Shown: piece after piece, positions 1-15,393 of the stretch
Layout of the letters: every line of letters starts with the position of its first letter
How positions within the stretch are numbered: the stretch's first letter is position 1
Assembly: GCF_003253995.1 (NCBI RefSeq)
Contig: NZ_QKZL01000002.1
Coordinates: forward strand, 1-64,000
Direction of reading: 5' to 3'
Origin: Palleronia aestuarii
GTDB taxonomy: Bacteria; Pseudomonadota; Alphaproteobacteria; Rhodobacterales; Rhodobacteraceae
Length of the DNA stretch: 64,000 nucleotides
The notes under the pieces: generated by a model
What the model saw: only the letters and a program-made list of their open reading frames with translations
Told to the model about the DNA's origin: nothing
Database searches by the model: none
Program-made: the position numbers and the translations under genes

Positions 1-287
1 AGCGTCGAGTAGTCCGGCACCGACCAGTCGAGCCCCATGAGCTTCAACAGGCTCGCCACGAAGCCCGTTGTCTGGCGAAGCGGCAGGCCGAACAGCACCT
101 TGATGGTCAGGCACGCTTGGATCGCCGCGTCCGAGAAGGTTTGCTGCCGCCCCTGCTTGCCCGAAGGCGCCGCGTGCCAAGCCATGCCCGGGTCGAACCA
201 GACCGTCAGAGACCCGCGCTCACGCAGCGACGCGTTGTAACTCGACCAGTTCAGGGTGCGGCAACGGGTGGGCGCAGGCTTGGACAT
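1..287 (-). CDS. IS5-family transposase, N-terminal part
   Basis: This frame starts at the ATG at 287 (MSKPAPTRCRTL) and is open to the window edge, giving 95 codons. It contains segments typical of the N-terminal domain of IS5/IS903-group DDE transposases: SLTVWFDPGMAWHAAP, AAIQACLTIKVLFGLPLRQT, and LKLMGLDWSVPDYSTL. The DDE catalytic core would lie further left, outside the window. It should cut and paste the surrounding IS. Whether the full gene is intact cannot be judged from here. Confidence 0.85.
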   Translation of the reverse strand, partial: MSKPAPTRCRTLNWSSYNASLRERGSLTVWFDPGMAWHAAPSGKQGRQQTFSDAAIQACLTIKVLFGLPLRQTTGFVASLLKLMGLDWSVPDYST

Positions 288-350
288 GCCGGACAGCTAT
301 GTCGCTGGACTCACGATGTGAATCCCACGCAGGCTTTCTGCAACAAGGCC
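1..350 (-). mobile_element. IS5-family insertion sequence, 5' part (cut by window edge)
   Basis: The right end carries the terminal motif GGCCTTGTTGCAGAAAG (read on the minus strand, ending near 350), typical of IS5/IS903-like ends. The transposase starts 63 bp inside it and runs off the left edge. The other inverted repeat lies outside the window, so the target duplication cannot be confirmed. The element sits inside a lower-GC gene fragment (352-651). Confidence 0.8.
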
Positions 351-351
351 C

Positions 352-651
352 CTTCAACGCACAAATGTACCGAAGCCCTGTTGCTGGTTCATTATAGGAG
401 ACTCGGCACCAGTTGGGTCGATCAGCAATCCATAAGCCATTTTGAAGAGCCATAGGTATAATCGTTAGGTGATGGTGCTCCAAATGATCGCCGTGAGTTG
501 CTAAAATATGGCGAGTTGTATCCATCGATAGGAGAATCTGACCGGTTTTTTGGCTGAGATGCCGCCTGGCCTGATTTATGACCTTGCCAACTACGACTTC
601 AGCAATCTGCCCCGATAGCAGCATCGCAACGGTTTCAAGATCAACTCGCAC
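352..651 (-). pseudogene. PBECR-like nuclease gene fragment, interrupted by the IS
   Basis: The minus-strand frame reads from a GTG at 651 (a stop lies at 684) and runs straight into the IS end near 350, where it loses its natural C-terminus. The stretch QILLSMDTTRHILATHGDH followed by ALQNGLWIADRPN and ATGLRYICALK resembles the phage Barnase-EndoU-ColicinE5/RelE-like (PBECR) nuclease domain found in mobile elements. The region is visibly richer in A+T than the rest of the window. The identification rests on motif recall alone, and the original start may also be lost. It is probably a dead toxin or phage-type gene. Confidence 0.45.
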
Positions 652-853
652 ATCATCAATATCCGCGAAAACAGATACCCTTCAATCGTGCATCGATGGC
701 AAAAGCTATGAGCCTCAGTCCCGCATCGCGGCGCCATCGAGGATAGGAACCGCGGTAAAATGGGATTAATCATCTTAGAGGAAACTTAAGCGTGTCCGAT
801 GAACAGCATGGCGAGGAGCAATCGTAGCGCCCCGCCTCCGCCAATTTCCCTAC

Positions 854-1420
854 CTAAGAGGAACGCCGCCGTGCGACCCAACCGGCCCCGGCCAAGGCTA
901 CCAGTAGGAGCGGCATCGCGCCAGGCAACGGTACCGGGGCCACGTCCGTCATCTCGGGCAGGCCATCTACCGACCAGGACAGCACGTCATACTTGATCGA
1001 ATCGAACAGGTCGCCATTACTGCCCTCTGGCAGTATTGTCGTCTGAATAAAGATCTCGCCCGTGCCATCGGCCTCCAAGTCGTAAGAGTAGGCGCTGTCG
1101 TCGTCCGGCATGATGTAAGCAAAGAGTGCGCCCGTCGAGAGATCGACTTCGTATTGCTCTCGAGCGCGGCTAAAGCCATTCTCTTCGAAGTACCCCGTAT
1201 CGCTATCTACCATGACCGGCAGAATTAAGTCCACAATTTCACCAACTACCGGACCAGTGTATTCGCTGTTCGGGTAGATCGACGGGTCCACGCCGCTGGT
1301 CGTGGCCCGATACCCCTCCGTGACCTCTGCCGTAATGTTGTAGGTCAGATTAATCGTCGCTGCGCTTGCAGTTCCGCCAAACGCCGCCGCTGCAACGGCA
1401 ATCATCGCAAAATTCCGCAT
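854..1420 (-). CDS. VPLPA-CTERM sorting-domain surface protein (copy 1)
   Basis: A 188-residue predicted exported protein. Residues 1-20 form a signal peptide with a hydrophobic alanine-rich core ending in ASA. The C-terminus is a VPLPG motif, a hydrophobic helix of about 16 residues and an arginine cluster (ARRR). This is the VPLPA-CTERM tripartite signal recognised by exosortases in Rhodobacterales. The middle is acidic, rich in Asp, Glu and Tyr, and has the segment INLTYNITAEVTEGYRA shared with its neighbour. It is expected to be processed at the C-terminus and linked to the envelope or exopolysaccharide. Role unknown. Confidence 0.85.
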   Translation of the reverse strand: MRNFAMIAVAAAAFGGTASAATINLTYNITAEVTEGYRATTSGVDPSIYPNSEYTGPVVGEIVDLILPVMVDSDTGYFEENGFSRAREQYEVDLSTGALFAYIMPDDDSAYSYDLEADGTGEIFIQTTILPEGSNGDLFDSIKYDVLSWSVDGLPEMTDVAPVPLPGAMPLLLVALAGAGWVARRRSS

Positions 1421-1510
1421 AACTTACTCCCGAGAATACGCCCGCAATCAGAACACGGATGAAGGAAAAAGCGCAGCGGGCCGCATACGCAATCTCCCAG
1501 TTCTGCTAGT

Positions 1511-2059
1511 TCAGGAAAGGCGTCGCCGTGCGACCCAACCGATGCCCGCGAGTCCGAGCGCAAGAAGCGGCATGGAAGCAGGCAAGGGGACGGGGGCCAC
1601 TTCCGCCATGTCCGGGAGGCCGTCAACCGACCAAGACAAGACGGTGTATCCGGTAAAGTCGGTTATAAAATCTCTTGGATTTGTTTGGAAAAACACGGAC
1701 CCAAAGCCGTCGGCGTTCAGGGTGTATTCCCTGAGATCCTCATAATCTTCTAGAATGTAAGCGCTCAGCGCACCCGTCATAAGGTCAACCGTGATGTATT
1801 CGCGGTCTCCCAAATCTGCGCGACTGTACCTGCCGGTTACATCGTCAACGCTGACATTTAACGGGAGATCGACGATCTCGCCGACAGGCAGACCTGGGTA
1901 AAAGCTGTTCGGGTACTCGGGGTCATCGGGATCACCGTAGGGGCTGTCCCGCTCGCCGAGCGTCACCTCCGCCGTGATGTTGTACGTCAGATCGACCATT
2001 GCGGCCTGCGCCGCCCCTGCGAGCATCACCGCACCCGCTGCCATCGTCAGTATACGCAT
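1511..2059 (-). CDS. VPLPA-CTERM sorting-domain surface protein (copy 2)
   Basis: A 182-residue paralogue of the gene 90 bp downstream, in the same orientation. It has a signal peptide (residues 1-19, MRILTMAAGAVMLAGAAQA), the shared VDLTYNITAEVTLGERD start of the mature part, and an identical architecture. Shared segments include PVGEIVDLPL, LMTGALSAYI and VLSWSVDGLPDM. It ends in VPLPASMPLLALGLAGIGWVARRRLS, a canonical VPLPA-CTERM signal. The conservation of the mature domain between copies indicates a local duplication. No exosortase gene is in the window. Confidence 0.88.
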   Translation of the reverse strand: MRILTMAAGAVMLAGAAQAAMVDLTYNITAEVTLGERDSPYGDPDDPEYPNSFYPGLPVGEIVDLPLNVSVDDVTGRYSRADLGDREYITVDLMTGALSAYILEDYEDLREYTLNADGFGSVFFQTNPRDFITDFTGYTVLSWSVDGLPDMAEVAPVPLPASMPLLALGLAGIGWVARRRLS

Positions 2060-2615
2060 ACCGTTCTCCTAGTTACCTAATGTGCCGACCGTGGCGAATG
2101 GTTAACGATTTGAAAAGAGGCGGCGCACACTCTCACGCTTCATTCACGGGTCCACCGTAGCACGGCCTTCCTTCCGTGTAGTGCGCCGACAGCACCAGGC
2201 CGCCCCGTTGGCTCTACGATGGCCCCTAGAGGCGCGGAGAGAGCGCGTATGTCGTCCTGCGGGGTGTGCAGACGGTAGGCGTCCACGGTCTGCCCGCAGG
2301 TGTCACACGTGGCGATCATGTCAGCCCTTCACCCTGTACCGTTTGCCAACGAATAATCGACCCAATTCTGTCCTGCTGACGCCCTGCGCCCTCGGTAGGG
2401 CGGTGCATGATCGACACCAGTCTTCACGTCAACGGGGCTATTTGGACCGGCATCTACGCGTCGGGAGTCGCGCTTGCCGTTCTGAGCACAATAGCTCGAT
2501 GGTGGAAGCGTCGATGAATGCGGAAGCCAAATGCATCAGGCGAAGGGCATCCGAGCGCGCGCTGCCCGATGGGCGGTGAGCTTCTGAAGCAGTTGGAGCC
2601 ATCGAAACGGAGCTT
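2060..2615. other. 556-bp stretch without a convincing gene
   Basis: It lies between the VPLPA genes and the small terminase gene. Two short frames are possible but unproven. One is on the minus strand at 2140-2319 (59 codons, starting MIATCDTCGQTVDAYRL, with one CxxC pair). The other is on the plus strand at 2407-2517 (36 codons), with one likely membrane helix followed by RWWKRR. No large-terminase or portal coding is seen here, although those would be expected next to a small terminase in a complete phage. Confidence 0.4.
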
Positions 2616-3095
2616 CTAACTCCTGACCACGTGATCATCGAGAGCGGCAAACGGATTTCGCCCCTTTGGCGCTTGGGCGCTTACCTTGGACCGGGCTGCA
2701 GGGGTCAGGCCGAACTCAGCAAGCAGCGACTGCGCATGCCGCATTGCCTCATTCCGCATCCCGACTTCCGGCCGCGCCCGGTACATCACATCACCCGCGA
2801 TGTTCGTGGTCTGATACGTTCTGCCAGCATCCTCGATGATTGCCGTCATCAGTTCGATTTCCTCCAATCGGCTGGCAAGCATCGCGAGCACATGAACGTC
2901 ATCGGTGGACGCAATCCCCATGCCTTCGAGGATGGCGGATGTTGTCGCGAAGATCTCGGCTGCTCTGTCGGATAGCCATTCCGGTGGAACGGTAACACCC
3001 GGATTCGGCGACGGAGCGTCCGCGTTCGAGCGTCGCGGTTCGAGGGTTCCGGTCAGCACCTTTAGATGATCAGGCTTTCGCTTTCGTCCTGGCAT
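2616..3095 (-). CDS. Phage terminase small subunit, P27 family
   Basis: A 159-residue DNA-packaging protein that would select the genome for the large terminase. The chosen start is the ATG at 3095 (MPGRKRKPDHLKVLTGTLEP), preceded by AGAGGTG at good spacing; an upstream in-frame start at 3134 lacks this. The basic N-terminus GRKRKPDHLKVLTGT and the segment PPEWLSDRAAEIFATTS are hallmarks of P27-type small terminases. It is the last gene of the element operon, 116 bp after the capsid gene. No large subunit follows, which suggests either reliance on a helper phage or decay. Confidence 0.88.
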   Translation of the reverse strand: MPGRKRKPDHLKVLTGTLEPRRSNADAPSPNPGVTVPPEWLSDRAAEIFATTSAILEGMGIASTDDVHVLAMLASRLEEIELMTAIIEDAGRTYQTTNIAGDVMYRARPEVGMRNEAMRHAQSLLAEFGLTPAARSKVSAQAPKGRNPFAALDDHVVRS

Positions 3096-3211
3096 GTCAC
3101 ACCTCTTGCGAGCGGTTCGCAAAACTGCCTTCATTCTGCCCGCGTATGAAATCAGCGGGCCGCTGGTCCTCTAAAACTGTCGCCTCAGAGTTTCCGGCGG
3201 CCCCCCGGTGA

Positions 3212-4390
3212 TCACGCGGCAATCCCGAACTCACCGTAAGTCAACGCAAGCGGTTGCTTCACCGCCAGGGCGATCCGTTCCTCCGCAAGAACGGTGACCA
3301 AGTTGCGGGTGAAGTCGTCGTTCACGTAACCAACTTCGACGCGCGGCTGCCATCTGTCATAGAGCGTGGCGGCGCTCGCGAACGATCCGACGAGGAACGT
3401 ATCGACGGCCATTGCCTGAGTTGCGACGACCGGCAAACCGAACAGCATTGGCGTCACCTCGGTTTGCGGATTGCCCAGGATGTACTTACCATCGGCATCC
3501 TTGAGGAGCCGCATCCGCATCCAGTCGCTCGGGTGCATCACGATCCCATCCGGGATGAAGTCAGTCAGCGCCGTTTGGAGCATGGCCGATCCGATAGTGT
3601 CGAGCGGGCTGGCGCTTGCTCCGATTGCAAGAGGATCGGCGAAGGCCGTCGCGCTCGGGATCAGGCCCAACAGGTTCGCCGCCGAACCGTCGCCCAGGAG
3701 AATTTGAGTTTCCTCCGATAGGGAAAGGCCATAGCGCAACTCCACGTCGATCAGATCGCGGAGCTGTGGCGCATCCTCGAGAATTTGCCGGGACGCCTTG
3801 ATCCAATGCGCGATGACTTCGGCCGAGGTGGTCTTCAGCTCCAGCGTCATATCGCTTTCAGGCTTCAACGCACCTTCCATCACCGTCGCAGCGGAACCCG
3901 GTCGTGTGAGTTGATTGACGTACTCGACGCTGCCGCTGGAGATGCTGATCACTCCCAGAAGGTCGCGGATCGTCAGGCGGCGTTTCGGCAGCATGGAGAT
4001 TGCGTCGCGCTGCAGAACATTGAGCGTCCCCGCCGAGGCGGGATCGGACGTGATCGCCTTGACGTTCAGTTGCACCTTTCCGCTGTTCGTGTTTGCCAAG
4101 TCGCGAAGATCGCCCTCGCGGGATTTGGTGAACTCCTGGCCCCAGGTCATTGGTTCAGGCGTGCCGCCAAAGAACCCCTTTGGTCTGGACGTCTTCGTCT
4201 CGATGGTGTCGAGCCGCGCGTCGATCCCCGCGATTTCGTCAGACGCCTTCTGCAAACGTTCCTTGGTGGCATCGGCCATGTCGCCGATCTTGCGCGCCAG
4301 GATGTCGAAGGGATCGCCCGCGTCTTTCTTGCGCAGGTGATCGCCCGCGGCCTTCAGTGCGGCCAGGCCGCGCTTATCGTGATAGGTCAT
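3212..4390 (-). CDS. Phage major capsid protein, HK97 family
   Basis: A 392-residue HK97-fold capsid subunit. The N-terminal 75 residues are charged and helical, ending at DTIETKTSRPKG; this matches the delta (scaffold) domain normally cut by the prohead protease. The HK97 core follows, with RDLLGVISISSGSVEYVNQ, WIKASRQILEDAPQLRDLI and GDGSAANLLGL. The C-terminus has the FTRNLVTVLAEERIALAV strand found in most members. The start overlaps the protease stop by 4 bp (ATGA), as expected for a translationally coupled head module. Confidence 0.93.
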   Translation of the reverse strand: MTYHDKRGLAALKAAGDHLRKKDAGDPFDILARKIGDMADATKERLQKASDEIAGIDARLDTIETKTSRPKGFFGGTPEPMTWGQEFTKSREGDLRDLANTNSGKVQLNVKAITSDPASAGTLNVLQRDAISMLPKRRLTIRDLLGVISISSGSVEYVNQLTRPGSAATVMEGALKPESDMTLELKTTSAEVIAHWIKASRQILEDAPQLRDLIDVELRYGLSLSEETQILLGDGSAANLLGLIPSATAFADPLAIGASASPLDTIGSAMLQTALTDFIPDGIVMHPSDWMRMRLLKDADGKYILGNPQTEVTPMLFGLPVVATQAMAVDTFLVGSFASAATLYDRWQPRVEVGYVNDDFTRNLVTVLAEERIALAVKQPLALTYGEFGIAA

Positions 4391-5058
4391 AACTGCCTCA
4401 TTGATTGAATGGCGCGGTCAATTGCTTGCGCCACGTGTTGAGCCTTCTCGTGGGTTTCGTCGCCCGACAGAGCGTGCCAGCCCCCGGCTGCGAAGCGGGC
4501 CGCAGCCTTCTTCGACAGTCCGCATTCTCGCAACATGTCGATTGCCTCGGCCTTGGAGCCGAGAGCCTTCACGCCGCTGATCCTTGCCAGTGGATTGGCC
4601 GGGACCGTCACGACGCTGATCTCCAGAACCTCGACTTCCTTCAGGTGGAAGACGCCTTGCCCGACGTACTCGCGCCCACCCTCGGGAACGGTGAAGCCGA
4701 TGGACAGGCCCCCGGCATCACCGGCTTTGACGTGCTCGTAGGCTTCGCGCCCGCCGTCCGTGGAGAGGTTTAGAACGCCTTCGACGTGAAGGCCCTTGCT
4801 GTCCTCCTGCATGGCCGTCCAGCGACCTATGGGGCGCTCCTGCATGTGTGCCCAAAGCATCACCGGCATGTCGCCATCTGGCGCAGTCTTAAGGCTCAGG
4901 GACTTCGTGAAGGCCCCAGGCAGCACGACATCTGAGTGCCGGTCGGGAACCCCGCCGAAAGTGGAGGCGTAGCCTTCGATCCGCCCTTGCGAGGACGCCT
5001 TCACTTCGAGCGAAGATGCCGGGGCGGTGATAAGATGATTGAGGTATTTGGAGGTCAT
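4387..5058 (-). CDS. HK97-family prohead protease
   Basis: A 223-residue serine protease of the U35 type that matures capsid proheads. Key segments are GRIEGYASTFGGVPDRHSDV at about 26-45, MLWAHMQERPIGRW (catalytic His) at about 67-80, and GGLSIGFTVPEGG (catalytic Ser). Next is VEVLEISVVTVPANPLARI, the conserved final strand. A tail of about 50 residues (REC...RFAAGGW) extends past the core. The gene overlaps the capsid gene by 4 bp. The start context is weak, but no better in-frame start is seen downstream. Confidence 0.92.
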   Translation of the reverse strand: MTSKYLNHLITAPASSLEVKASSQGRIEGYASTFGGVPDRHSDVVLPGAFTKSLSLKTAPDGDMPVMLWAHMQERPIGRWTAMQEDSKGLHVEGVLNLSTDGGREAYEHVKAGDAGGLSIGFTVPEGGREYVGQGVFHLKEVEVLEISVVTVPANPLARISGVKALGSKAEAIDMLRECGLSKKAAARFAAGGWHALSGDETHEKAQHVAQAIDRAIQSMRQL

Positions 5059-5187
5059 TGCTTCGATCCGCTGAATACGAAAACAGGAAGCCCGAGGGCC
5101 GCTGATCTGTCCGTTCGCTTCGTGCCCGGTATGGTCGCCGGTGCGGTCGAAGGTGAATCGGCGGGCCAGCCGCTCAATTCCCCAGTA

Positions 5188-5205
5188 GGGGTATCATTAT
5201 ACCCC
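5188..5205 (-). promoter_or_regulatory. Palindrome containing a TATAAT box, upstream of the head genes
   Basis: The perfect inverted repeat GGGGTAT-CATT-ATACCCC lies 130 bp upstream of the protease start. Read on the minus strand it contains TATAAT, a consensus -10 box. TTGACT is also present just upstream, but only 9 bp away, so no well-spaced -35 is seen. A repressor or activator operator overlapping a head-gene promoter is a reasonable guess. Confidence 0.4.
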
Positions 5206-5212
5206 ATTGAAG

Positions 5213-5455
5213 TCAATGACATTTGGCTGCCCGCTTCTTGTCGAGATGGGCGAACGCACCGCCTTCGATGTTGTCGGCCGTCCGTCGAAACAGCTCGGCG
5301 GTCTGCTCGGGGCCAATATCAAAGTACGCCTGGGCTGCGCTGTAGGTCAGCAGGCGATCGAGGATCATCGGGACGCTCGCGCCGCTTTCCTGCATCATGG
5401 TCGCGGCTCTGGCGACGATCGTGTCGCAGAGAGATTTGGCTTCGTGGTCAGTCAT
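5213..5455 (-). CDS. Small hypothetical protein of the element
   Basis: An 80-residue soluble protein of unknown family, beginning MTDHEAKSLCDTIVARAATM. It is predicted mostly helical, with no signal peptide or membrane segment. It sits between the helicase gene (173 bp upstream, separated by a GC-rich inverted repeat) and the palindrome at 5188-5205. Its place between replication and head genes would suit a small regulator or replication accessory protein, but nothing in the sequence shows this. Confidence 0.6.
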   Translation of the reverse strand: MTDHEAKSLCDTIVARAATMMQESGASVPMILDRLLTYSAAQAYFDIGPEQTAELFRRTADNIEGGAFAHLDKKRAAKCH

Positions 5456-5494
5456 CGGTTCGGTCCTTCAAGCTCAGTTTCTCGCTGTTCATTT

Positions 5495-5627
5495 GCGCTA
5501 CCCTCGTGCGGCCACAGGTGATGCGCGCCACCCCCACCCCCCCGTAGGGGGTGGGGGTGGTGGCGCACCTGTTTTGAGGTGGTTCGCGCTACCCTACGCT
5601 ACCCATGTTTCGGGGGTGGTGGCGCAG
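5495..5627. repeat. Long hairpin plus short repeats between helicase and head module
   Basis: The core is a near-perfect inverted repeat at 5515-5571 (arms CAGGTG..CGCGCCACCCCC and GGGGGTGGTGGCGCACCTG around GTA). GCGCTACCCT occurs at 5495-5504 and 5586-5595, with a variant ACGCTACCCA at 5596-5605. GGTGGCGCA recurs at 5559 and 5618. The position next to the RepA-like helicase gene fits an origin of replication; a transcription-controlling hairpin is the alternative. Confidence 0.5.
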
Positions 5628-5628
5628 G

Positions 5629-6897
5629 TCATTCCGTTGCCCATTCGTCCACCTCCAAGCCCTTCCGGGTGCGTCTCTGCGGGCCAGGAACTTCGACCCG
5701 CTTCAGCGCTCCACTTGCCTCCCAGGTTGCCAGAACCTTGCTGATGCGCTTGCAGTCGGCGGTCACGTTCCAGCCGAGGACATCGGCCACGATGACACCC
5801 GCCCAATCGTCTTTCGTCTGCCAGTCAGCACCGGGCGCATTGCCTTCGTCGTGCCTCTTCTGGACCGCATGTTGCACCGCTAGAAGGTCGGCAGTCGTCA
5901 CCCCGTCGAAGGTGTCGGGCCAGTTCCAGGCTTCAGCCACGCCCACGCTGTCACCGTTTCCCAGCTCAACGGATGCCATGCGTCGCCAAACCCGTTTGCC
6001 AGCGGGCGCGAGGTTTGACTTGTCGCGTGTGACTGCGAAGTAGGTCGCAGGGTCGTCCTTGACGCCTGCTTCCGCCTTCATCTCGTCCGTCATCTTGTTA
6101 AGCACCCGACCCGAACGAGCGGCGGCAAGGAGGGCCGTGGCACCCCTGCCGCTTTCGGTCGTCAGCTCTTCGCCGTTCGCCTTGCGGGTGTGGTGAACCA
6201 GCTCAATGGCGCAGTTACAGCGATCGGCAAGCCGCGCCCATTCCTTCGCAACCTTGTCGATCGCGCCGTTGTCGTTCTCGCTGACCTGATGCGAGGACAC
6301 GAACGGATCGATGATCAGCACGTCAATCTCTCGCGCTTCGATCTCCCGCCGCAGGTCGTCGAGGACTGGAGCGAGGATTTGAACGCCCTCCCGCGTCTGG
6401 ATCGCGGTACAAAGCTCGCGCTCCCGTCCGGTGTCGAGAAAAAGTCGCCCTTTGATATCCTCGGGTGCCACCTGGTGATGAAGCACCGCAGCGATGACGC
6501 GTCGTTCCAACTCGTCGCGTGGGTCTTCGAGGTTAAAAATCCAAACCTTCAGCCCTTGCGCAGTCCAGTCTCCCAAGAGGTCGCGCCCTGAGGCCATCGC
6601 CAGCGCCTCGCAGATCGTCATGGACGACTTGCCGACGCCACCGGGGGCCACAGTCACGCTGACCTGTCGGCGCAACAGGTGGCGCCCATAAAGCCACGGG
6701 CGGGGCGGGATGGTCGAAGGTTCGCGCCACATGAAAGGCGTGGGAAGCTGTTCTTGACGCTTCTCCGGCTCGCTGCCTTCGTCCCGGCATACTTCCACAG
6801 GTGGCATCGGTGGGCCATCGTCGCAGGGCACGAGATTCCGTCCCCAGAAGTCGTCGCACTCCTTCATGCGGCGATCGATCTCGGTAAAGGCGTTCAT
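5629..6897 (-). CDS. RepA-like hexameric helicase / AAA_25 ATPase
   Basis: A 422-residue RecA-fold ATPase of the RepA/AAA_25 type found in plasmid and satellite replication modules. The Walker A motif is in VAPGGVGKSSM (about residue 87-97), followed by WIFNLEDPRDELERR. Walker B is IDVLIIDPFVSSHQV, followed by CAIELVHHTRKANG and a sensor-like GRGATALLAAARSGRVL. The last 100 residues resemble a winged helix for DNA binding. It probably unwinds the element's own origin. Its start overlaps the upstream gene by 4 bp. Confidence 0.85.
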   Translation of the reverse strand: MNAFTEIDRRMKECDDFWGRNLVPCDDGPPMPPVEVCRDEGSEPEKRQEQLPTPFMWREPSTIPPRPWLYGRHLLRRQVSVTVAPGGVGKSSMTICEALAMASGRDLLGDWTAQGLKVWIFNLEDPRDELERRVIAAVLHHQVAPEDIKGRLFLDTGRERELCTAIQTREGVQILAPVLDDLRREIEAREIDVLIIDPFVSSHQVSENDNGAIDKVAKEWARLADRCNCAIELVHHTRKANGEELTTESGRGATALLAAARSGRVLNKMTDEMKAEAGVKDDPATYFAVTRDKSNLAPAGKRVWRRMASVELGNGDSVGVAEAWNWPDTFDGVTTADLLAVQHAVQKRHDEGNAPGADWQTKDDWAGVIVADVLGWNVTADCKRISKVLATWEASGALKRVEVPGPQRRTRKGLEVDEWATE

Positions 6898-7286
6898 GCC
6901 GCATCCCTCCCGCGCGTCGCGTCGAGAAAATCGGCTTGCTCCTTCGGCGAAAGGCGATTGAACGTAACCCAGGCGTAGGCCCGTAGCTCGTCATCGGTTG
7001 CCATGTTGGCCCAAAGCGCCGCCTCGTCGTGATCGTCAGTAAAGGCCACTCCGGGCGTTCCTGCGCCGCCTAGAACAGTATTCGTCACCTGCCGTATCTG
7101 CTCAGGATCAAGGGCGGTCAGCGCTGCCCAGGCAAGGCCCAGGCGACCGCGATCGGAAAGACGCGCGAGGATCAACGCCGCGAAACGCTGCCATCCGTCG
7201 AAGTCGCCCAGCGTCAGGCTGTAGCCGATCATCCGCGCCACACTTTTGTGCGCGGGGTTCATCAGTTTTGAGAGGGTCGAAGTCAT
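6894..7286 (-). CDS. Hypothetical protein upstream of the helicase
   Basis: A 130-residue soluble, helical protein with no family recognised. It begins MTSTLSKLMNPAHKSVARMI and ends RLSPKEQADFLDATRGRDAA. It overlaps both neighbours by 4 bp, so it is translated as part of the helicase operon. A helicase loader or other replication accessory role would fit this position, but that rests on context only. Confidence 0.65.
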   Translation of the reverse strand: MTSTLSKLMNPAHKSVARMIGYSLTLGDFDGWQRFAALILARLSDRGRLGLAWAALTALDPEQIRQVTNTVLGGAGTPGVAFTDDHDEAALWANMATDDELRAYAWVTFNRLSPKEQADFLDATRGRDAA

Positions 7287-7471
7287 TCGCCCGCCCTCCC
7301 AGCATGGACGGCCTTATGGTGCTTGCGGCAGAGCCACCGGACGGCCAGCGGCTTGCTGTAATCATCGTGGTGCCCGTCCGTATGGGGATGGCCGCACATC
7401 TCGCAGGGCTGACGCTCTACCAATCCACGCCGCAGCCCCGAACGAAGCGAAGCGTGCGCCCAGGTCTTCAA
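7283..7471 (-). CDS. HNH-like zinc-binding protein, start uncertain
   Basis: The visible protein has a zinc-knuckle pattern: CEMCG, then HHDDYSKPLAVRWLCRKHHKAVH. This is common in small phage and satellite proteins and related to HNH treble clefs, though the full nuclease motif is not evident. The start at 7471 is TTG. The same frame stays open to a stop near 7631 and upstream encodes plausible family sequence (FPRQAAWRDRNPLKTWAHAS), but has no ATG or GTG. The true start may be a CTG near 7552, or the gene may have lost its 5' end. Confidence 0.6.
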   Translation of the reverse strand: MKTWAHASLRSGLRRGLVERQPCEMCGHPHTDGHHDDYSKPLAVRWLCRKHHKAVHAGRAGE

Positions 7472-7676
7472 GGGATTCCGGTCGCGCCATGCGGCTTGGC
7501 GAGGAAATGCTTTCCCGACATGGCGTGAGGTGATATCTTTTGCGGGCAGCTCGCCAGCTTTGCTATTCGCCCCGGTCGCGGTTGCCGCCGCACCGGGGTT
7601 TTGCTTTGCCGAATCGGGCCCTGCTACGATCCTTTACGATCCTGCGACCCTAAGATACTGTTATTGAATGGAACCC

Positions 7677-7696
7677 GAGTCCTCTCCTGGGCACCA
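7677..7696 (+). other. tRNA 3'-end fragment, probable attachment site
   Basis: GAGTCCTCTCCTGGGCACCA matches the T-loop, T-stem, acceptor strand and CCA of a tRNA, with the CTGGGCACCA end typical of tRNA-Phe. No anticodon or D-arm precedes it. Such a partial copy marks where an element integrated into the 3' end of a tRNA gene. The element lies to the left and the native chromosome to the right. The intact tRNA should lie at the other element boundary, outside this window. Confidence 0.65.
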
Positions 7697-8101
7697 CGGG
7701 TTTCCCCAATGATTCATATCGTTTACGGACCCGTCGCGGCAAGGTGCATACCGACTCTTGGTCATCTTGGGCAAACGGCGTCTTTCTCCCGAGCGGAACG
7801 TCGTAAGCTACATGGCCAAGGGCAGACGTTGGCCGGGGCGGGCACTGCAACGAAATCCTGACCGATATCCCCTCGCGGCCGCCGCGCATCAGGCTCTCGA
7901 GCACGCGCGGCACGAGCTGTCCTTGCCCCGAACTTGCGGTTCTCATCCCCGGATCGCCATGTCCGGCACAGCGACCGGCGCCTGGCGCGAACATCTCCCC
8001 CGCGCACTTCACCACCCATCGGAGGGATTTTTCAATCGGCCGCTGGCGGCCATCGCACGCGATGGTATTGGACGGAGATGACGAAGAAGGGGACGGCATC
8101 G
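7697..8101. other. Intergenic stretch right of the attachment site
   Basis: About 400 bp with no recognisable gene or RNA. Open frames cross it in both directions, but their residue composition looks like GC-driven noise. In-frame upstream extensions of the molybdoenzyme gene (to 8078 or 7934) are possible but add no family-like sequence. Any promoter of that gene should lie here; none is clear. Confidence 0.45.
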
Positions 8102-10405
8102 ATGGCACGAGACGAGAAGGACGCCGGGCTGCCGCACAGCTCGCATTGGGGGCGCTTCGACGGGCGACTACTGGACGACGGGCGCCTCGACGTCCGGGCA
8201 CACCCCGACGATCCGGATCCATCTCCGATCCTCGGGAACTTCACGGATGCATTGCGTCACCGGGCGCGGATCGCACGCCCCGCCGTCCGGCGCGGCTGGC
8301 TAGAGGATGGCCCGGGCCCGGACGATCGGCGCGGTCGGGACGCCTATGTCGAGGTTCCCTGGGACGAGGTGCTCGACCGGGTGGCCGGAGAGCTCGAAAG
8401 GGTCCGAGACGCCCATGGCCCGCAATCCGTCTTCGGCGGCTCCTACGGCTGGGCGAGCGCGGGGCGGTTCCACCATGCGCAGAGCCAGCTTCACCGGTTC
8501 CTCAACACCGCACTCGGCGGCTATGTCCGCTCCGTCGGCAGCTACAGCGCCGGTGCCTCGACCTTCCTCCTGCCGCATCTGATGGGCTCGTACGAGGCGA
8601 TCTCGCGCCACAACGTCACCTGGGAACAGATCGCGCAGCATACCGACATGATCCTCGCCTTCGGCGGCATGGCGGTGAAGAACTCGAACATCGCGGCGGG
8701 CGGGATCTCCAAGCATATCGAGCGTGGCATGATGGCGCGTGCGGCCTCGCGCGGCGCGCGCTTCGTAAACGTGAGCCCGCTCCGGGGTGACTTCCCGGCG
8801 GAGGCACGGGCGGAATGGATCGCTCCCACGCCCGGCACCGACACCGCGATGATGCTGGCCATGATGCACGTGCTCGATGCGGAGGATCTCGCGGATAGGG
8901 CGTTTCTCGAAAGCCATTGCGTCGGCGCGGACCGACTTCTCGCCTATGTGAGGGGCGAAGCTGACGGGACGGCCAAGACGCCCGACTGGGCGGCGACGAT
9001 CACCGGTATCGACGCCGCAACGATCACGGGGCTCGCGCGCGATGCGGCGCGGGGCCGTACGCTCGTTACCGTCGCACATTCGCTGCAGCGTGCCGAGCAC
9101 GGCGAGCAGCCCGTCTGGGCCGGGCTGGCCCTTGCCGCGATGCTGGGCCAGATCGGAGCTCCGGGCGGCGGCTACAATTACGCGCTCGGATCGCTTGGCC
9201 ATACGGGCCGGGTGCCGGTGGGCCTGCCGTTGCCCACGCTCTCGCAGGGCCGGAACGGCGTCTCGGCGTTCATCCCGTGCGCGCGGATCGCCGACATGCT
9301 GCTCGATCCCGGTGCGTCGTTCGACTTCAACGGCGCGACGATGGCCTATCCCGACATCCGCCTCGTCTATTGGGCGGGGGGCAATCCGTTCCATCACCAC
9401 CAGGACCTCAGCCGGCTTGCGCGCGCCTTCGCGCGCGTGGAAACGCTGATCGTGCAGGACTTTGCCTGGACGGCGAGCGCGCGGCATGCCGATATCGTCC
9501 TGCCGGCCACGATGAGCCTCGAGCGGGAGGATATCGGCGCGGCGAGCACCGATACGCGGATCGTGGCCATGCGGGCCCTTTCCACACCCTTTGCGGAGGC
9601 GCGCGACGATTACCGGATCTTTCGCGGCCTCGCGGAGCGGATGGGGTGCGATGCCGAGTTCAGCGAAGGCCGCGATACCGAGGGCTGGCTGCGCCATCTC
9701 TACGAGACGACCCGCGCGGCGCTGGAGGCCGGGGGCCACGCGGCTCCGGATTTCGACGCCTTCCGCGCCGCGGGCGAGATCGCGCTCCCCAATCCTGTCG
9801 ATGACGGAGGATTGCTCCGGGCATTCCGGACCGACCCGGTCGCCCATCCGCTCGCCACGCCCTCCGGTCGGATCGAGCTTTTTTCCGAGACGATCGACGG
9901 GTTCGGCTATCCCGATTGCCCTGGCCATCCGGCCTGGCTCGAGCGCGAGGAAGTGCCGTCCGCGGAATATCCGCTCTGGCTCGTCTCCAATCAGCCGGCC
10001 TCGAGGCTCCACAGCCAGCTCGATTACGGCGCCGCCTCGCAGGCCGCCAAGCGGCAGGGTCGGGAGGTCGCCTCTCTCAATCCCGCCGATGCGCGAAACC
10101 GAAATATCTCCGACGGGGAACTCCTGCGGATCCGGAGCCCGCGCGGCGCCTGCCTTGCCGCGGCCAAGGTCGACGACGCGGTCGCGGCGGGCGTCGTCAA
10201 CCTTCCGACCGGCGCCTGGTACGACCCGATCGAGATCGACGGGCAACGGATCTGCCGACATGGCAATCCCAATGCGGTGACCCGCGATGCGGGCACGTCG
10301 CGCCTCGGACAGGGCTCCACCGGACAGCTCTGCTGCGTCGAGGTCGAACGCTGGGACGGACCGATCGACGATATCCGCGCCTTTGATCCGCCAGTCACGG
10401 GGTGA
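8102..10405 (+). CDS. Molybdopterin oxidoreductase, biotin sulfoxide / TMAO reductase type
   Basis: A 767-residue bis-MGD enzyme of the DMSO reductase family, closest in style to BisC/DorA. Evidence includes LPHSSHWG near residue 10, SYSAGAS at about 148-154 (the serine expected to bind Mo), GGMAVKNSNI, YWAGGNPFHHHQDL, and the C-terminal cofactor domain (RLHSQLDYG, RNRNISDGELLRI, GNPNAVTRD). There is no Tat or Sec signal and no N-terminal Fe-S cysteines, so it should be cytoplasmic and reduce S- or N-oxides. The start was chosen at 8102 (MARDEKDAGLPHS) because the homologous region begins there; 8078 has GGAG directly before it and is an alternative. Confidence 0.88.
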   Translation: MARDEKDAGLPHSSHWGRFDGRLLDDGRLDVRAHPDDPDPSPILGNFTDALRHRARIARPAVRRGWLEDGPGPDDRRGRDAYVEVPWDEVLDRVAGELERVRDAHGPQSVFGGSYGWASAGRFHHAQSQLHRFLNTALGGYVRSVGSYSAGASTFLLPHLMGSYEAISRHNVTWEQIAQHTDMILAFGGMAVKNSNIAAGGISKHIERGMMARAASRGARFVNVSPLRGDFPAEARAEWIAPTPGTDTAMMLAMMHVLDAEDLADRAFLESHCVGADRLLAYVRGEADGTAKTPDWAATITGIDAATITGLARDAARGRTLVTVAHSLQRAEHGEQPVWAGLALAAMLGQIGAPGGGYNYALGSLGHTGRVPVGLPLPTLSQGRNGVSAFIPCARIADMLLDPGASFDFNGATMAYPDIRLVYWAGGNPFHHHQDLSRLARAFARVETLIVQDFAWTASARHADIVLPATMSLEREDIGAASTDTRIVAMRALSTPFAEARDDYRIFRGLAERMGCDAEFSEGRDTEGWLRHLYETTRAALEAGGHAAPDFDAFRAAGEIALPNPVDDGGLLRAFRTDPVAHPLATPSGRIELFSETIDGFGYPDCPGHPAWLEREEVPSAEYPLWLVSNQPASRLHSQLDYGAASQAAKRQGREVASLNPADARNRNISDGELLRIRSPRGACLAAAKVDDAVAAGVVNLPTGAWYDPIEIDGQRICRHGNPNAVTRDAGTSRLGQGSTGQLCCVEVERWDGPIDDIRAFDPPVTG

Positions 10406-10742
10406 TCGGGACGCGACAGGTTTCGGGAGAGCGGCATCGACGGGGCTCGGCGCAAGAGCGCGGCTGCCTCTCTCTGGAACCCGTCGCAGCATCTGTCTGC
10501 CAAGCCTAGTCGGTACAAGGACGACCTGGACCAATCCTAGGCGGATAGGGCGTCGAACATTCATTTTTTAGGCCCGGAACCTTTGGGCGTGATACGTCTC
10601 AAAGCCCGCTACCAAGATCGATTAGTTTCGCGGCATCTCTGATCATTCGCTGCGCGGGCGCCCACACGAGAAGACGACGAATCGATTGGGCCTGCGACGA
10701 TCCAGGTTTCCCTAGGGAAAGTTGTATTTGACAATCATCGAT
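10406..10742. other. Intergenic stretch with a 14-bp palindrome
   Basis: No gene is seen. The perfect palindrome TTTCCCTAGGGAAA occupies 10707-10720, and TTGACA, a consensus -35 box, lies at 10728-10733. Together they suggest the promoter and control region of the MarR gene that starts at 10765. A clear -10 box is not seen. Confidence 0.5.
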
Positions 10743-10771
10743 CGTTCATCACAGGCTCGTTAGGATGAACG
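10743..10771. promoter_or_regulatory. Inverted repeat over the marR start, candidate autoregulatory operator
   Basis: Arms CGTTCATC (10743-10750) and GATGAACG (10764-10771) are perfect complements separated by 13 bp. The right arm covers the ATG of the MarR gene. MarR proteins usually bind such repeats in their own promoters, so autoregulation of this gene, and perhaps of the following operon, is inferred. Confidence 0.45.
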
Positions 10772-11271
10772 AGGTCGCGAAATCTTCACCGAGTAGTGAG
10801 ACGAGCCTGAGGCGATTGGCCCCGGACGATCTCGACGTGCTCGAGAACCTTCTCAGCTTCTACATGCGCGCAGTGACCCATACCCTCTCGCGGGATCTCG
10901 ATGCGCGTCTGGCGGGGCTCGAGGTCGCGAAGGGAACCGGCAAGATCACCGCGCTCCTCCTCATCGACTCCCACCCCGGGATCCGCGCATCGGCCATCTC
11001 CGAGGCGACGTTGCGCGACCGTCCGTCCATGAGCAGGCTTCTGACCCATCTCGAGGCGGTCGGGCTGATCGAACAGCGTGTCGAGCCCGGCGAGCGTCGC
11101 GCCCGCGGCCTCTACATCACCGCGCGCGGCCATGCGGTCTCGCAGGAGGTCCGCAAGATCACCAGGGCGCAATCTACGGAGTTCTTCGCGGTACTAGACG
11201 AAGACGACCAGTCTCATCTCATGCGAATCACCCGCAAGCTCTATCACCATATCCGGGAGGGGCTCGCATGA
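10765..11271 (+). CDS. MarR-family transcriptional regulator
   Basis: A 168-residue winged-helix regulator. The pattern is typical of MarR: an N-terminal dimerisation helix (VLENLLSFYMRAVTHTLSRD), a recognition helix region (SEATLRDRPSMSRLLTHLEA), and the wing (LIEQRVEPGERRARGLYITA). C-terminal helices follow. It lies 85 bp upstream of a FAD oxidase and a complete peptide-type ABC importer, all on the same strand, and probably controls them in response to a transported compound. The start is the ATG in the right arm of the inverted repeat; the ribosome-binding site is weak. Confidence 0.85.
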   Translation: MNEVAKSSPSSETSLRRLAPDDLDVLENLLSFYMRAVTHTLSRDLDARLAGLEVAKGTGKITALLLIDSHPGIRASAISEATLRDRPSMSRLLTHLEAVGLIEQRVEPGERRARGLYITARGHAVSQEVRKITRAQSTEFFAVLDEDDQSHLMRITRKLYHHIREGLA

Positions 11272-11356
11272 TCGCGGCGCTGCGCCTGCCCGCTTGCGCG
11301 AATGGCTGCGCGATCCTCCGCCTCGCCTCACGTCCTGTCCCCAAGGAGAATTCCTG

Positions 11357-12688
11357 ATGCCCGGTCCCGAACCCGTCCCGGTCCACGGAGATGACACCCT
11401 GCCCTCCCGCGTCGACGTGGTCGTCATCGGCGGCGGCATCATCGGCTGTTCGACCGCACTCGAACTCTGCGAGGCGGGAAAGTCGGTGGCGATCTGCGAG
11501 AAGGGCGGCATTGGCCACGAACAATCGACCCGCAACTGGGGCTGGGTCCGCCTCTCGCGCCGCGATCCGAGGGAAGTCCCCCTGATGGTCGACGCATTGC
11601 GTCAATGGGACGGCCTCGCGGCGCGGGTGGGCACGGATCTGGGCTATCGCCGGACGGGCATCTCCTTCGTGTGCCGAACCGACGAGGATGTCGAGAATCA
11701 CCGTCGCTGGCAGCGGCATCTGGAGCCCTTCCAGATCCCCTCGCGAATCCTCTCCCGGTCCGAGCTCGAGGAAATGGCGCCCGGCGGGGAGATCGACGGC
11801 AAGGGCGCGCTCTACACGCCACAGGACGGCCGCGCGGAACCGCAGAAGGCGGCGCCCGCCATCGCGGAAGCCGCCCGCGCGAAGGGGGCCGCGATCCTCA
11901 CGAACTGCGCCGTGCGGGGAGTGGAGACGAAGGGCGGGGCCGTTTCGGGCGTGATCACCGAACGCGGCAGCATCGCCTGCGACGCGGTCGTGGTCGCGGG
12001 CGGTGCGTGGTCGAACCTCTTTTGCGGCAACATCGACATCGACCTGCCGCAACTTGGCGTGGTGAGCCATGTGCTCAGGACCGATCCGGTGAACGGCGGC
12101 CCCGAAGGCGCGATGTGGACGAACCGCTTCGCGATCCGCAAACGCCAGGACGGCGGCTACACCCTCTCGCGTGGATCGGGCAACACGGTCGACATCGTTC
12201 CGAATTCCTTCCGCTACGCGCGGAAGTTCTTCTCCGCCCTGAGGATGCAGCACCGCGACCTGCACCTGCGCTTCGGCCGGCGGTTCTTTCACGAAGCGCG
12301 ACGCAAGCGGCGCTGGCGGATGGATGAGACGAGCCCGTTCGAACAGGAACGCGTCCTCGACCCGACCCCGTCGCCGCGGATGCTGAACGACCTGATGGGG
12401 GAGGCCTCCAAGGTCTTCCCCGCGCTGAAGGGCGCGCGCGTCGCCCAGAGCTGGGCCGGGTGCATCGACGTGACGCCCGACGCGGTTCCCGTGATCTCCG
12501 CCGTCGACGGGCGGCCGGGGCTGCATATCGCAACCGGGTTCTCCGGCCACGGCTTCGGCATCGGGCCGGGAGCGGGCGGGCTGATGGCGGATCTGGTCCT
12601 CGGACGGACGCCACGGGTCGATCCGCACGCGTTCCGCTTCTCCCGCTTCACCGACGGGAGCCGCGTTGCTCCCGACGAAGGTTTCTGA
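11357..12688 (+). CDS. FAD-dependent oxidoreductase, DAO family
   Basis: A 443-residue soluble flavoenzyme. The dinucleotide-binding fold begins RVDVVVIGGGIIGCSTALEL (GGGIIG at 25-30) with a terminal ICEKGGIG. The C-terminal segment GLHIATGFSGHGFGIGPGAG is the usual FAD-closing motif of D-amino-acid dehydrogenase and sarcosine/glycine oxidase relatives. The start at 11357 has AAGGAG seven bases upstream. It probably oxidises a secondary amine or amino acid brought in by the ABC importer encoded next, using the respiratory chain or oxygen. The exact substrate is not evident. Confidence 0.85.
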   Translation: MPGPEPVPVHGDDTLPSRVDVVVIGGGIIGCSTALELCEAGKSVAICEKGGIGHEQSTRNWGWVRLSRRDPREVPLMVDALRQWDGLAARVGTDLGYRRTGISFVCRTDEDVENHRRWQRHLEPFQIPSRILSRSELEEMAPGGEIDGKGALYTPQDGRAEPQKAAPAIAEAARAKGAAILTNCAVRGVETKGGAVSGVITERGSIACDAVVVAGGAWSNLFCGNIDIDLPQLGVVSHVLRTDPVNGGPEGAMWTNRFAIRKRQDGGYTLSRGSGNTVDIVPNSFRYARKFFSALRMQHRDLHLRFGRRFFHEARRKRRWRMDETSPFEQERVLDPTPSPRMLNDLMGEASKVFPALKGARVAQSWAGCIDVTPDAVPVISAVDGRPGLHIATGFSGHGFGIGPGAGGLMADLVLGRTPRVDPHAFRFSRFTDGSRVAPDEGF

Positions 12689-12737
12689 ACGGCCCGGCAA
12701 GAGGCCGCCCTCCCAAGTTCAACAGATGGAGACGATG

Positions 12738-14369
12738 ATGATAGGCAATCTGACCCGACGCGGAATGTTGAAGACCGGCGCCGCGGGACTGACGATGATG
12801 ATCTCCTCGGGCGCCGCGCAGAGGCTTTCCGCGCAGGACGGCGGGGGGCAGGTGACCATCGGCTTCTCGCAGGAACCCACGGTGATGAACCCGCACCTGC
12901 CGCATATCGAGGTCGACGAGGGCATCCACTTCAACCTCTTCGACCCGCTCTTCACCATCCGCACCGACGGCTCCTTCCAGCCCGCGCTCGCCCGGGAGGT
13001 CCCGACGGTCGAGAATGGCGGCATTTCGGAGGATGGCCTGTCGTGGCGGGTGCTCCTGCGGGAGGGCGTTACCTGGCATGACGGGACGCCCTTCACCGCC
13101 GAGGACGTGAAGTTCACGCTGGAGCTGCAGGCCGATCCCGCCTTCAACGCGATGCGCCGGACCGGGCACGAGCTTGTCCGCAACGTCCAGGTGGTGAACG
13201 ATCACGAGATCACATGGGAGATGGAAAGCCCCTTCGCGCCCTATCCCTCGATCCTCGCCTGGACCTTTATCGTTCCCGCCCACATTCTGGGCGAGGCCGA
13301 CGACCCGAACACCGCGCCCTTCAACAATTCCCCCGTGGGCACCGGCGCGTTCCAGTTCGGCGAGCGTGTGGCGGGCAATTACGTGATGCTCGAGGCCTAT
13401 CCCGATTACTGGGGCGAAGGTCCGCATCTCGACCGCGCGATCTGGCGCTACATCCCCGACATGACGGTCCTCTACACGCAGTTCCGCACCGGCGACATCG
13501 ACGTGATCGGGCTGCAGGGCATTCCCTTCGACCGCCTCGACCAGGCCGAAGGGCTCGACGACCGCGAAATCGTCATCGCCCCCGCGGCCACGGTGGAGAG
13601 CTTCACCTTCAACATGGAACGGCCGCAATTCAAGGATCCGGCGGTGCGCCAGGCGCTCTACCACGCGCTCGACAAGCAGACGATCATCGACGCGATCTAC
13701 TACGGCATCCCGAAGCCGACCGAGACCTTCCTTCCGCTGCAATCGCCCTACGCCAAGACCGATCTCGAGACGGTCGAGTACTCCCTCGACAGGGCCCGCG
13801 AGATCCTCGACGAGGCCGGCTGGGTGCCGGGCGACGACGGGATCCGCGTCAAGGACGGCGTGCGTCTCGCCTTCACGAACTCCACCACCGCCGGCAATTC
13901 CGTGCGCGAGCAGACGCAGCAATTCGTCCAGCAGGACTTCGCCGATATCGGCGTGGAGATGACGATCTCGAACCTGCCGCCCGCGGTGATGTGGGGCGAG
14001 TACTGGATGCAGTCGCAATTCGACTCCGTGATCGTCGGCATCAACTTTCCCACCGGGGCCGATCCCGACGTATCGAACTACCTCCATTCCTCCTCGATTT
14101 CGGCACAGGGCGGCGCCGGCCAGAATACCTGGCAATACAGCAACCCCCGTGTCGACGAGCTCCTGGAGGAGGGCGGACGGCTCTTCGTTACCGACGAGCG
14201 CAAGGCGATCTACGACGAGGTGCAGCAGATCGTCCACGACGACCTGCCGTTCCTGCCGATGTTCCAGTACATGAACCTGCGCGGCCACAAGACCGGGCTC
14301 GAGGGGTTCGACCCGAACGTCAACGTGCGGATCGAGACCTGGAACGTCGCGGAATGGCGCTGGGCCTGA
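12738..14369 (+). CDS. ABC transporter substrate-binding protein, peptide/nickel (SBP_bac_5) family
   Basis: A 543-residue periplasmic binding protein of the DppA/OppA class. The N-terminus has NLTRRGMLKTGAAGLTMMIS, a twin-arginine-like signal, with a likely cleavage near SAQD. Family segments include NPHLPHIEVDEGIHFNLFDP, SWRVLLREGVTWHDGTPFTA and PVGTGAFQFGE. GGAG stands six bases before 12738, so this start is preferred; in-frame ATGs at 12726 and 12735 are alternatives. It should deliver a peptide, opine or similar amine-bearing ligand to the permeases encoded downstream. Confidence 0.9.
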   Translation: MIGNLTRRGMLKTGAAGLTMMISSGAAQRLSAQDGGGQVTIGFSQEPTVMNPHLPHIEVDEGIHFNLFDPLFTIRTDGSFQPALAREVPTVENGGISEDGLSWRVLLREGVTWHDGTPFTAEDVKFTLELQADPAFNAMRRTGHELVRNVQVVNDHEITWEMESPFAPYPSILAWTFIVPAHILGEADDPNTAPFNNSPVGTGAFQFGERVAGNYVMLEAYPDYWGEGPHLDRAIWRYIPDMTVLYTQFRTGDIDVIGLQGIPFDRLDQAEGLDDREIVIAPAATVESFTFNMERPQFKDPAVRQALYHALDKQTIIDAIYYGIPKPTETFLPLQSPYAKTDLETVEYSLDRAREILDEAGWVPGDDGIRVKDGVRLAFTNSTTAGNSVREQTQQFVQQDFADIGVEMTISNLPPAVMWGEYWMQSQFDSVIVGINFPTGADPDVSNYLHSSSISAQGGAGQNTWQYSNPRVDELLEEGGRLFVTDERKAIYDEVQQIVHDDLPFLPMFQYMNLRGHKTGLEGFDPNVNVRIETWNVAEWRWA

Positions 14370-14395
14370 CCGCTTCCTGAGCCTTGTATCCGACA

Positions 14396-14420
14396 GGGTC
14401 CGGCGCGTTCCGCCGGACCC
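14396..14420 (+). promoter_or_regulatory. Intercistronic hairpin after the binding-protein gene
   Basis: A perfect 10-bp stem GGGTCCGGCG/CGCCGGACCC with a 5-base loop and no T-run. Hairpins of this kind after a binding-protein gene usually protect the upstream mRNA and reduce expression of the permease genes. Confidence 0.6.
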
Positions 14421-14438
14421 GAGACCGGGGGATCCTCC

Positions 14439-15389: not shown

Positions 15390-15393
15390 TCCG

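Follow-up and report, generated by a model that had tools for sequence, protein, structure and literature searches.

The left end of contig C2 (NZ_QKZL01000002.1) of the alphaproteobacterium Palleronia aestuarii carries a short run of phage head genes, which raises the question whether these genes are what is left of a prophage or belong to an element of its own that makes use of other phages. The genome assembly (GCF_003253995.1) consists of 77 contigs with 4.54 Mb, and the first 64 kb of contig C2, called the window in the following, were analyzed. An earlier note, made from the window alone, had proposed that the genes at 2616-7696 form a capsid-forming phage satellite at a tRNA gene. With a probability of about three in four, we regard the block as part of a phage satellite with a length of about 11.7 kb, integrated in a tRNA-Leu(CAG) gene, which encodes its own capsid protein, maturation protease and small terminase (TerS), and which uses the large terminase (TerL), portal, connectors and tail of a helper phage.

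One element on two contigs

The proteins of the window were annotated by Pfam and PHROG searches. The following features (position, strand, description and evidence) define the element:

1-350, minus: end of an insertion sequence (IS) of the IS5 family (transposase N-terminus at 3-287; IS5 matches in plasmids)
351-359, no strand: 9-bp target duplication CCTTCAACG, identical to the C28 side (L076 11665-11673)
2616-3134, minus: TerS, P27 family (PF05119, 6.8e-19; phrog_83, 1.7e-32)
3212-4390, minus: HK97-type major capsid protein (PF05065, 3.6e-47), which sits in the satellite capsid clade
4387-5058, minus: prohead maturation protease, S78 (PF04586, 1.8e-29)
5213-5455, minus: orf80, a small protein of three predicted helices, immediately upstream of the protease (profile matches; AlphaFold2 prediction, mean pLDDT 87)
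5629-6897, minus: AAA_25 (RepA-like) replicative helicase (PF13481, 5.6e-43; phrog_25693, 1.3e-54)
7283-7471, minus: short HNH-like protein, 62 aa (phrog_2340 endonuclease, 8.8e-15)
7676-7696, plus: attachment (att) repeat, a 21-bp copy of the tRNA-Leu(CAG) 3' end, right end of the element (genome-wide 21-mer search)

Read from 7471 to 2616, the gene order is HNH-like, orf130, helicase, orf80, protease, capsid and TerS. The orf130 product (6894-7286, minus) had no match at E 0.01 in the Pfam and PHROG searches. Overlaps of 4 bp exist between the genes for capsid and protease, helicase and orf130, and orf130 and the HNH-like protein, while capsid and TerS are separated by a gap of 77 bp. The helicase, protease, capsid and TerS genes named by the earlier note, and their tight coupling in one direction, were thus confirmed. 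Its observation that large terminase, portal and head-tail joining genes are absent also held, as our own profiles for TerL, portal and connectors had no match in window positions 1-9000 and in the piece of contig C28 described below. Connectors were searched for with one profile from prophage loci, the members of which match the head-tail adaptor phrog_442. A tape-measure match was likewise not found in the element. In the whole genome, the portal family PF04860 has matches only on contigs C1 and C4, and none on C2. PF20441 (TerL) has no match anywhere in the genome, but this profile is too insensitive to prove absence, and another TerL profile does match on C1. Only tails had been expected to be borrowed; given the lack of matches, portal, TerL and connectors must also come from elsewhere.

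The duplicate of a tRNA 3' end reported in the earlier note is real, yet it is located at the start of the gene run, i.e., at its right end, and not where the run ends. With up to two mismatches, the 21-mer occurs at a single other place in the genome, C28:34694-34714, where an intact tRNA-Leu(CAG) gene ends with it; the former assignment to tRNA-Phe was wrong. A tyrosine integrase gene (PF00589, 1.2e-12) directly adjoins the intact tRNA gene, and both the integrase and the intact tRNA, for which a search beyond the contig end had been suggested, were thus located on C28. Beyond the integrase follow small genes, including helix-turn-helix (HTH) genes of the types HTH_17 (7.7e-6, just under the cut-off) and HTH_3 (6.1e-8). 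The integrase and a 179-aa protein from C28 cluster with counterparts in the related satellites L031 and L049, and the HTH proteins cluster with one HTH protein of L031.

The end of C28 and the start of C2 are both pieces of one IS5-family transposon type, which has many copies in this genome, several of them at contig ends. The 9-bp sequence CCTTCAACG differs from all other IS flanks that were read (five right-end, four left-end), and in a Limimaricola plasmid both IS pieces are found in one IS, in the same order and with 373 bp between them. Because the two contigs share the target duplication and one IS of known layout, they are parts of one element, and it was the IS5 insertion that broke the assembly inside it. 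The element comprises 3608 + about 373 + 7696 bp and is therefore about 11.7 kb long, or about 10.6 kb without the IS. It spans window positions 1-7696 plus about 3.6 kb of C28, so that the limits 2616-7696 were too narrow. The two parts of the element have a G+C content of 60.2% and 57.7%, versus 66.5-66.7% for the flanks. In two of 14 genomes of the genus (G403 and G404) the DNA after tRNA-Leu resembles the right flank of the window (84-87% over 44-45 bp, of which att makes up 21 bp), and in G404 the resemblance to the integrase side, too, continues for 8 bp beyond att. Judged by sequence, these sites look as expected of an unoccupied site.

A lineage of tRNA-bounded relatives

Capsid searches yielded 20 loci from GTDB contigs and 27 from IMG/VR. 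The 47 loci, 15 longer stretches from genomes of the family, window 1-9000 and the C28 end were scanned with profiles for TerL, portal, protease, capsid and other genes, which had been built from our own gene clusters. Most loci fell into two groups: prophages, in which TerL and portal precede protease and capsid, and loci that have protease and capsid but neither TerL nor portal; some contigs were too short to be placed. TerL and/or portal were found in 14 of the 15 family stretches, and neither in L098. A second IMG/VR scan with an alignment of satellite capsids (best 80 of at least 595 matches, 77 of them new), together with a scan of 385 genomes of the class, added L099, L102 and L178. In this second round, TerL or portal were present in 67 of 79 loci. 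In eight of the remaining 12 the contig begins within the protease or capsid gene or shortly ahead of it, and there is a connector match; these are probably cut prophages. The others are L177 and L178 (same place), L099 and L103.

The spread of the lineage is modest: two of the 385 class genomes had a match at E 1e-90 or better, the focal genome included. In the family, 21 of 394 genomes had a capsid match, mostly in prophages. Matches in the named sets (1032 phage and 34 plasmid records) all had less than 60% identity, and the highest values among the 20 matches listed for each set were 43.5% for phages and 45.2% for plasmids.

Nine near-duplicate loci and capsids of at most 250 aa were excluded before the first capsid tree was built; it had 51 rows. 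Twelve satellite rows and L030 formed one group with a support of 100/99, which did not contain any prophage row. The portal-less loci L047, L048 and L098 were placed far from this group and are outside the claim. For the second tree (46 rows) these three and seven more were dropped and five capsids of the second round were added; the group now had 16 rows (14 satellites, L030 and L103) with a support of 98/97. Hosts of the clade include Rhizobium, Paracoccus, Haematobacter, Methylobacterium, Sphingomonas and Tsuneonella, which we take to belong to the Rhodobacterales, Rhizobiales and Sphingomonadales. At two positions most satellite capsids share residues, R294 and F317 (12 of 14), while prophage capsids have E294 (28 of 29) and W317 (29 of 29). 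An AlphaFold2 model of the capsid protein was too poor (mean pLDDT 51.6) and was not used.

Sequence on both sides was available for ten clade members. Eight of them (L031, L032, L033, L035, L036, L051, L052 and L178) have an exact direct repeat of a tRNA 3' end on both sides, and the tRNAs used are those for Glu, Lys, Arg, Thr, Val, Met, Gln and Ser. The repeats are 17-55 bp long, and the distance from copy to copy is 9497-11801 bp. The weakest is the 17-bp repeat of L178, as a second 17-bp repeat is present elsewhere in that locus. Inside the repeats, an integrase-profile match was found in all eight cases, and matches to the TerL and portal profiles in none of them. Because of the supported capsid clade and the eight tRNA-bounded members without portal and TerL, the focal capsid is a member of a satellite lineage and not the relic of one deleted prophage. 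The earlier note had named portal, large terminase and tail remnants in the adjoining DNA of relatives as evidence for a mere deletion; a portal and a TerL inside the element were looked for and not found in the eight bounded relatives, nor in L029. In L029 and L051, portal and TerL are present elsewhere on the same contig, outside the repeats.

Taken together, this lineage, found in several alphaproteobacterial groups, encodes a shell protein and a protease of its own and, in many members, a packaging adaptor. TerS is present in the window, L033, L036, L049, L050, L051 and L099, and was not found in L029, L031 and L032. For the portal, for the packaging motor and for most of the tail, if not the whole of it, the lineage appears to depend on a helper phage.

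Further genes accompany the head genes. Proteins similar to orf80 adjoin the protease on its upstream side. A profile built from nine of them matched 13 places, all in satellite loci (the nine source proteins, a duplicate, a near-copy, L099 and L052), and had no match in prophage loci, L033 or L178. The predicted fold of orf80 had no counterpart in BFVD at E 0.001 or better among the 35 matches listed. Tape-measure proteins were detected by PHROG in L049 (586 aa), L099 (671 aa), L052 (669 aa) and L178 (831 aa), and by Pfam in L102 (906 aa). In addition, L052 has a tail-tube match (1e-36), and L034 encodes a 683-aa protein with weak tail-protein matches. Ten cargo-like proteins of relatives were scanned, and six had PADLOC matches; for example, L036 has an Mrr-type restriction enzyme, and PD-T7-4-like proteins are encoded by L029 and L052. 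In the focal element the following features were found outside the head genes:

854-1420, minus: paralogue of the next gene (PEP-CTERM-like), possible cargo (clusters with 1511-2059; no Pfam match of its own)
1511-2059, minus: PEP-CTERM protein, possible cargo (PF07589, 1.2e-4, over its cut-off)
5495-5625, no strand: six GGTRGCGY words in both orientations between helicase and orf80, candidate replication origin

Six of the 18 GGTRGCGY copies of the whole window are packed into these 131 bp, which may be the origin of replication.

Several loci deserve separate mention. The 54.8 kb viral contig L102 has a satellite-type block of protease, capsid and tape measure at 1368-6983, and about 2 kb away, at 8982-12559, a block of an integrase-like gene, a partial portal, protease and capsid. 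L047 (Comamonas), L048 (Nitrosospira) and L098 (a family member) have distant HK97-type capsids with no TerL or portal match nearby and are possibly further satellite lineages. In Rhodobacteraceae LNNU 3342, L046 (10001-10968) is a capsid fragment that is 74% identical to the capsid of the window over about 104 residues, and a P27 TerS match seems to lie just downstream of it; this locus is perhaps a decayed relative.

Packaging signals, helpers and competing explanations

Four genomes that contain both a satellite and an HK97-type prophage were compared by BLAST. In three of the four, non-coding matches between satellite and prophage were found at the junction of the prophage HNH and TerS genes: 86 bp with 88% identity (4e-18) for L029, 38 bp with 95% (1.5e-8) for L031, and 36 bp with 94% (2.6e-7) for L032. 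For L031 and L032 the match is at the start of the predicted TerS frame, the start codon of which is unsure. The fourth genome (L035) had a 16-bp match only. The other DNA matches between satellites and prophages, among those listed, are mostly in the capsid and protease genes. As a separate observation, a regulatory region of L031 (12484-12950) is 82-89% identical to that of a prophage in the same genome (L183 14502-14965), which is possibly a shared switch.

From the three prophage matches the cos motif GGGGGNGGGTCRAAAGT was derived, and three mismatches were allowed. It was found between HNH and TerL (150/50 bp slack) in 52 of the 74 prophage loci in which both genes were detected, a count that includes near-copies; at other places it occurred 10 times in 1.41 Mb. 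With a limit of E 0.005, a cos model trained on 47 prophage sites only, after removal of near-copies, found sites in 10 of 14 elements, namely L031 (8.7e-15), L032, L029, L178, L099, L051, L035, L036, L033 and L052 (0.005). In seven of these the match is independent of the source of the motif, which L029, L031 and L032 had suggested. In 137 kb of flanks the model had no match at E 10 or better. By eye, the satellites that lack TerS seem to have the stronger cos matches, a trend that is not claimed here. As the cos regions of satellite and prophage match in three genomes, helper pairs can be named, among them those of Rhizobium oryziradicis N19 and Paracoccus onubensis, and are directly testable.

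For the focal element, a cos site was found neither by BLAST against 116 prophage loci nor by the prophage-trained model, and the single match of the motif with three mismatches falls inside the helicase gene. After satellite sites had been added to the training set, the retrained model gave one candidate in the gap between capsid and TerS:

3157-3206, minus: candidate cos site, weak and not significant (0.8 bits, E 13)

The retrained model also gave E 9.9 in the focal helicase gene, and five matches at E 7-16 in the flank control. The cos matches of L033 and L099 occupy the same capsid-TerS gap as this candidate. The focal genome contains an HK97-type prophage, L188 (G000:C1:246000-265900), with HNH, TerS, TerL, portal and capsid genes, which is a possible helper of the element.

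The element would be PICI-like (phage-inducible chromosomal island-like) in the broad sense, with its own tyrosine integrase and att repeats, helicase, AlpA/HTH-type regulators and TerS. A helper phage would trigger its excision, and the helicase would copy it, perhaps from the repeats at 5495-5625. Capsid protein and protease would build heads of satellite size around the helper portal, either without capsid protein of the helper or together with it. TerS would then bring the element's own cos to the helper TerL, and connectors and tails of the helper would complete the particle.

A number of points weigh against this picture. Excision, induction and particles are predictions. No significant cos was found in the focal element, L034, L049 and L050, and because the focal site is not significant, the packaging signal is inferred from its position. 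The element and L188 do not share DNA similarity at E 0.05. About 373 bp, a size estimated from the related IS, are hidden by the IS. The focal HNH-like protein aligns only to positions 104-161 of the 171 of phrog_2340, i.e., to the C-terminal third, and has no Pfam match; with this short gene, the IS and the PEP-CTERM pair, the focal copy may be decaying. Two relatives are irregular. L029 (Rhizobium oryziradicis) has an 84-bp repeat over the 5' part of tRNA-Cys, with copies 9663 bp apart, and the protein inside has an integrase-profile match (4.1e-10) and no Pfam match, while a clear integrase is encoded just outside. L030 (Mesorhizobium tianshanense, 9977-20017) has a capsid but neither a protease match nor a tRNA repeat; an integrase is encoded at a distance of 3.4 kb, and a TerL (phrog_2, 1.1e-22) at 7.5 kb on the other strand. 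L052 has a weak partial TerL-like PHROG match (7.6e-4) and no Pfam match. Because a PF04860 portal was not found in the genomes of L030, L033 and L036, a resident helper is not always present. Lastly, EcCICFT073, a PICI with a putative capsid gene, was described to yield packaged DNA of phage size only (PMC6092414), and a capsid gene therefore does not prove small heads.

An HK97-type prophage (G406:C26:757762-761025) has its TerS and portal about 12-14 kb from the satellite in L029, and three HK97-type prophage heads are present on this contig. The nearby prophage and the integrase just outside the tRNA-Cys repeat suggest tandem integration.

A variant of the satellite reading would be that the capsid protein co-assembles with that of the helper and shrinks the helper's head, which we consider possible, if rather unlikely. 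It has precedents in two publications: the SaPIbov5 capsid homologue Ccm blocks the phage via small capsids, and PmCI172, which also encodes a homologue, gives small capsids (PMC6092414), while the authors of the PISP study proposed disruption of head assembly (PMC13230959). The relatedness of the window capsid to prophage capsids of the family (33-49% identity in the stronger matches) would also allow it. On the other side, the capsid gene of the satellites is full-length, most of them have a protease as well, and the lineage residues R294 and F317 differ from E294 and W317 of the prophages. Between the capsids of L049 and L099, the non-synonymous divergence (dN) is about 0.12 and the synonymous divergence (dS) about 3.8, i.e., saturated; protease dS was not computable. 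The low dN fits selection on the protein, and it does not separate an own shell from a redirecting one.

It is very improbable that the element is what remained of an HK97-type prophage after deletion of portal, TerL and tail. The homologous genes, the IS inside the element, the short HNH-like gene and the existence of lone or degraded capsids (L030 within the clade; L046 not placed) would agree with such a history, but the same absence recurs in eight separate tRNA-bounded elements of 9.5-11.8 kb, the capsid clade is apart from all prophage rows tested, TerS follows the capsid gene instead of preceding TerL, and orf80 is matched in zero prophage loci.

Rhodobacterales carry gene transfer agents, i.e., head-tail clusters with an HK97-fold capsid and without integrase or att, and the satellite capsid profile weakly matches the capsid of RcGTA (6.7e-7). 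That the block is such an agent or an encapsulin-type shell is nevertheless hardly credible, as integrase, att repeats, helicase and TerS are present, portal and connector were not found, and the genome has a separate portal-protease-capsid locus on C4 (L187, C4:238000-257900), which may be its gene transfer agent.

Comparison with known systems

VEIMEs and tycheposons are encapsidated elements of marine bacteria, which are integrative, as is the element described here. The HK97-type prophages of alphaproteobacteria have a homologous or similar capsid, protease, TerS and cos region; they differ in the order TerL-portal-protease-capsid, in having connectors and tails, and in the lack of an orf80 match.

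The comparisons with published systems follow the accessible passages of the cited sources. The capsid-forming PICIs (cf-PICIs), to which the earlier note had likened the block, also bring their own capsid, protease and TerS and have no tails. However, they carry in addition portal, head-tail connectors, TerL and HNH (PMC10690885), and their mean size is about 14 kb (PMC10803314), compared to 9.5-11.8 kb in this lineage. In the focal element, portal, TerL and connectors are without a match while capsid, protease and TerS are present, and membership in the cf-PICIs was therefore rejected. What stood of the earlier proposal is that the element, with its small head module, very probably represents a phage satellite that sits in a tRNA gene of an alphaproteobacterium.

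SaPIbov5 (with Ccm) and PmCI172 are integrative islands with an own capsid homologue as well, for which small capsids were reported, and SaPIbov5 is transferred by cos phages (PMC6092414). They differ in their hosts, Staphylococcus and Pasteurella, and an own protease is not named in the passages, the comparison being by description only. The closest published gene set that we have seen is that of PISP TG93, a plasmid satellite of Vibrio crassostreae with 11.1 kb (PMC13230959). Both have capsid, head maturation protease, TerS and a MerR-like regulator, no tail genes and a size of about 11 kb, and the PISP capsid also groups with satellites and not with phages. In contrast, the PISP has capsid protein E (PF03864) instead of PF05065, is a plasmid without a detected integrase, and is from Vibrio only; in the accessible text a cos match is not described for it, and there is no mention of portal and TerL (PMC13230959).

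In the titles, abstract starts and passages covered by our literature searches, no description of this lineage in alphaproteobacteria was found; absence from print is not claimed. We propose only tentatively that it is a separate alphaproteobacterial satellite family, which takes over, in the main, those parts of a helper virion that measure and sort: its own shell for head size, in at least five relatives a tape measure for tail length, and TerS or a copy of the helper cos for the choice of the genome. Nearly all common parts, i.e., portal, motor, connectors and tail tip, would come from the helper. The tRNA-borne lineage would be intermediate between PICIs that reshape the capsid and cf-PICIs that bring the whole head and the motor. 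Heads without an own portal pose the question whether a satellite shell closes around a foreign portal, and the tape measures of satellites would be a second control point, on tail length. Satellites with capsid, protease and TerS are already known from the PISP, and PICIs of the SaPIbov5/PmCI172 type are comparable; what is new is this alphaproteobacterial, tRNA-borne variant.

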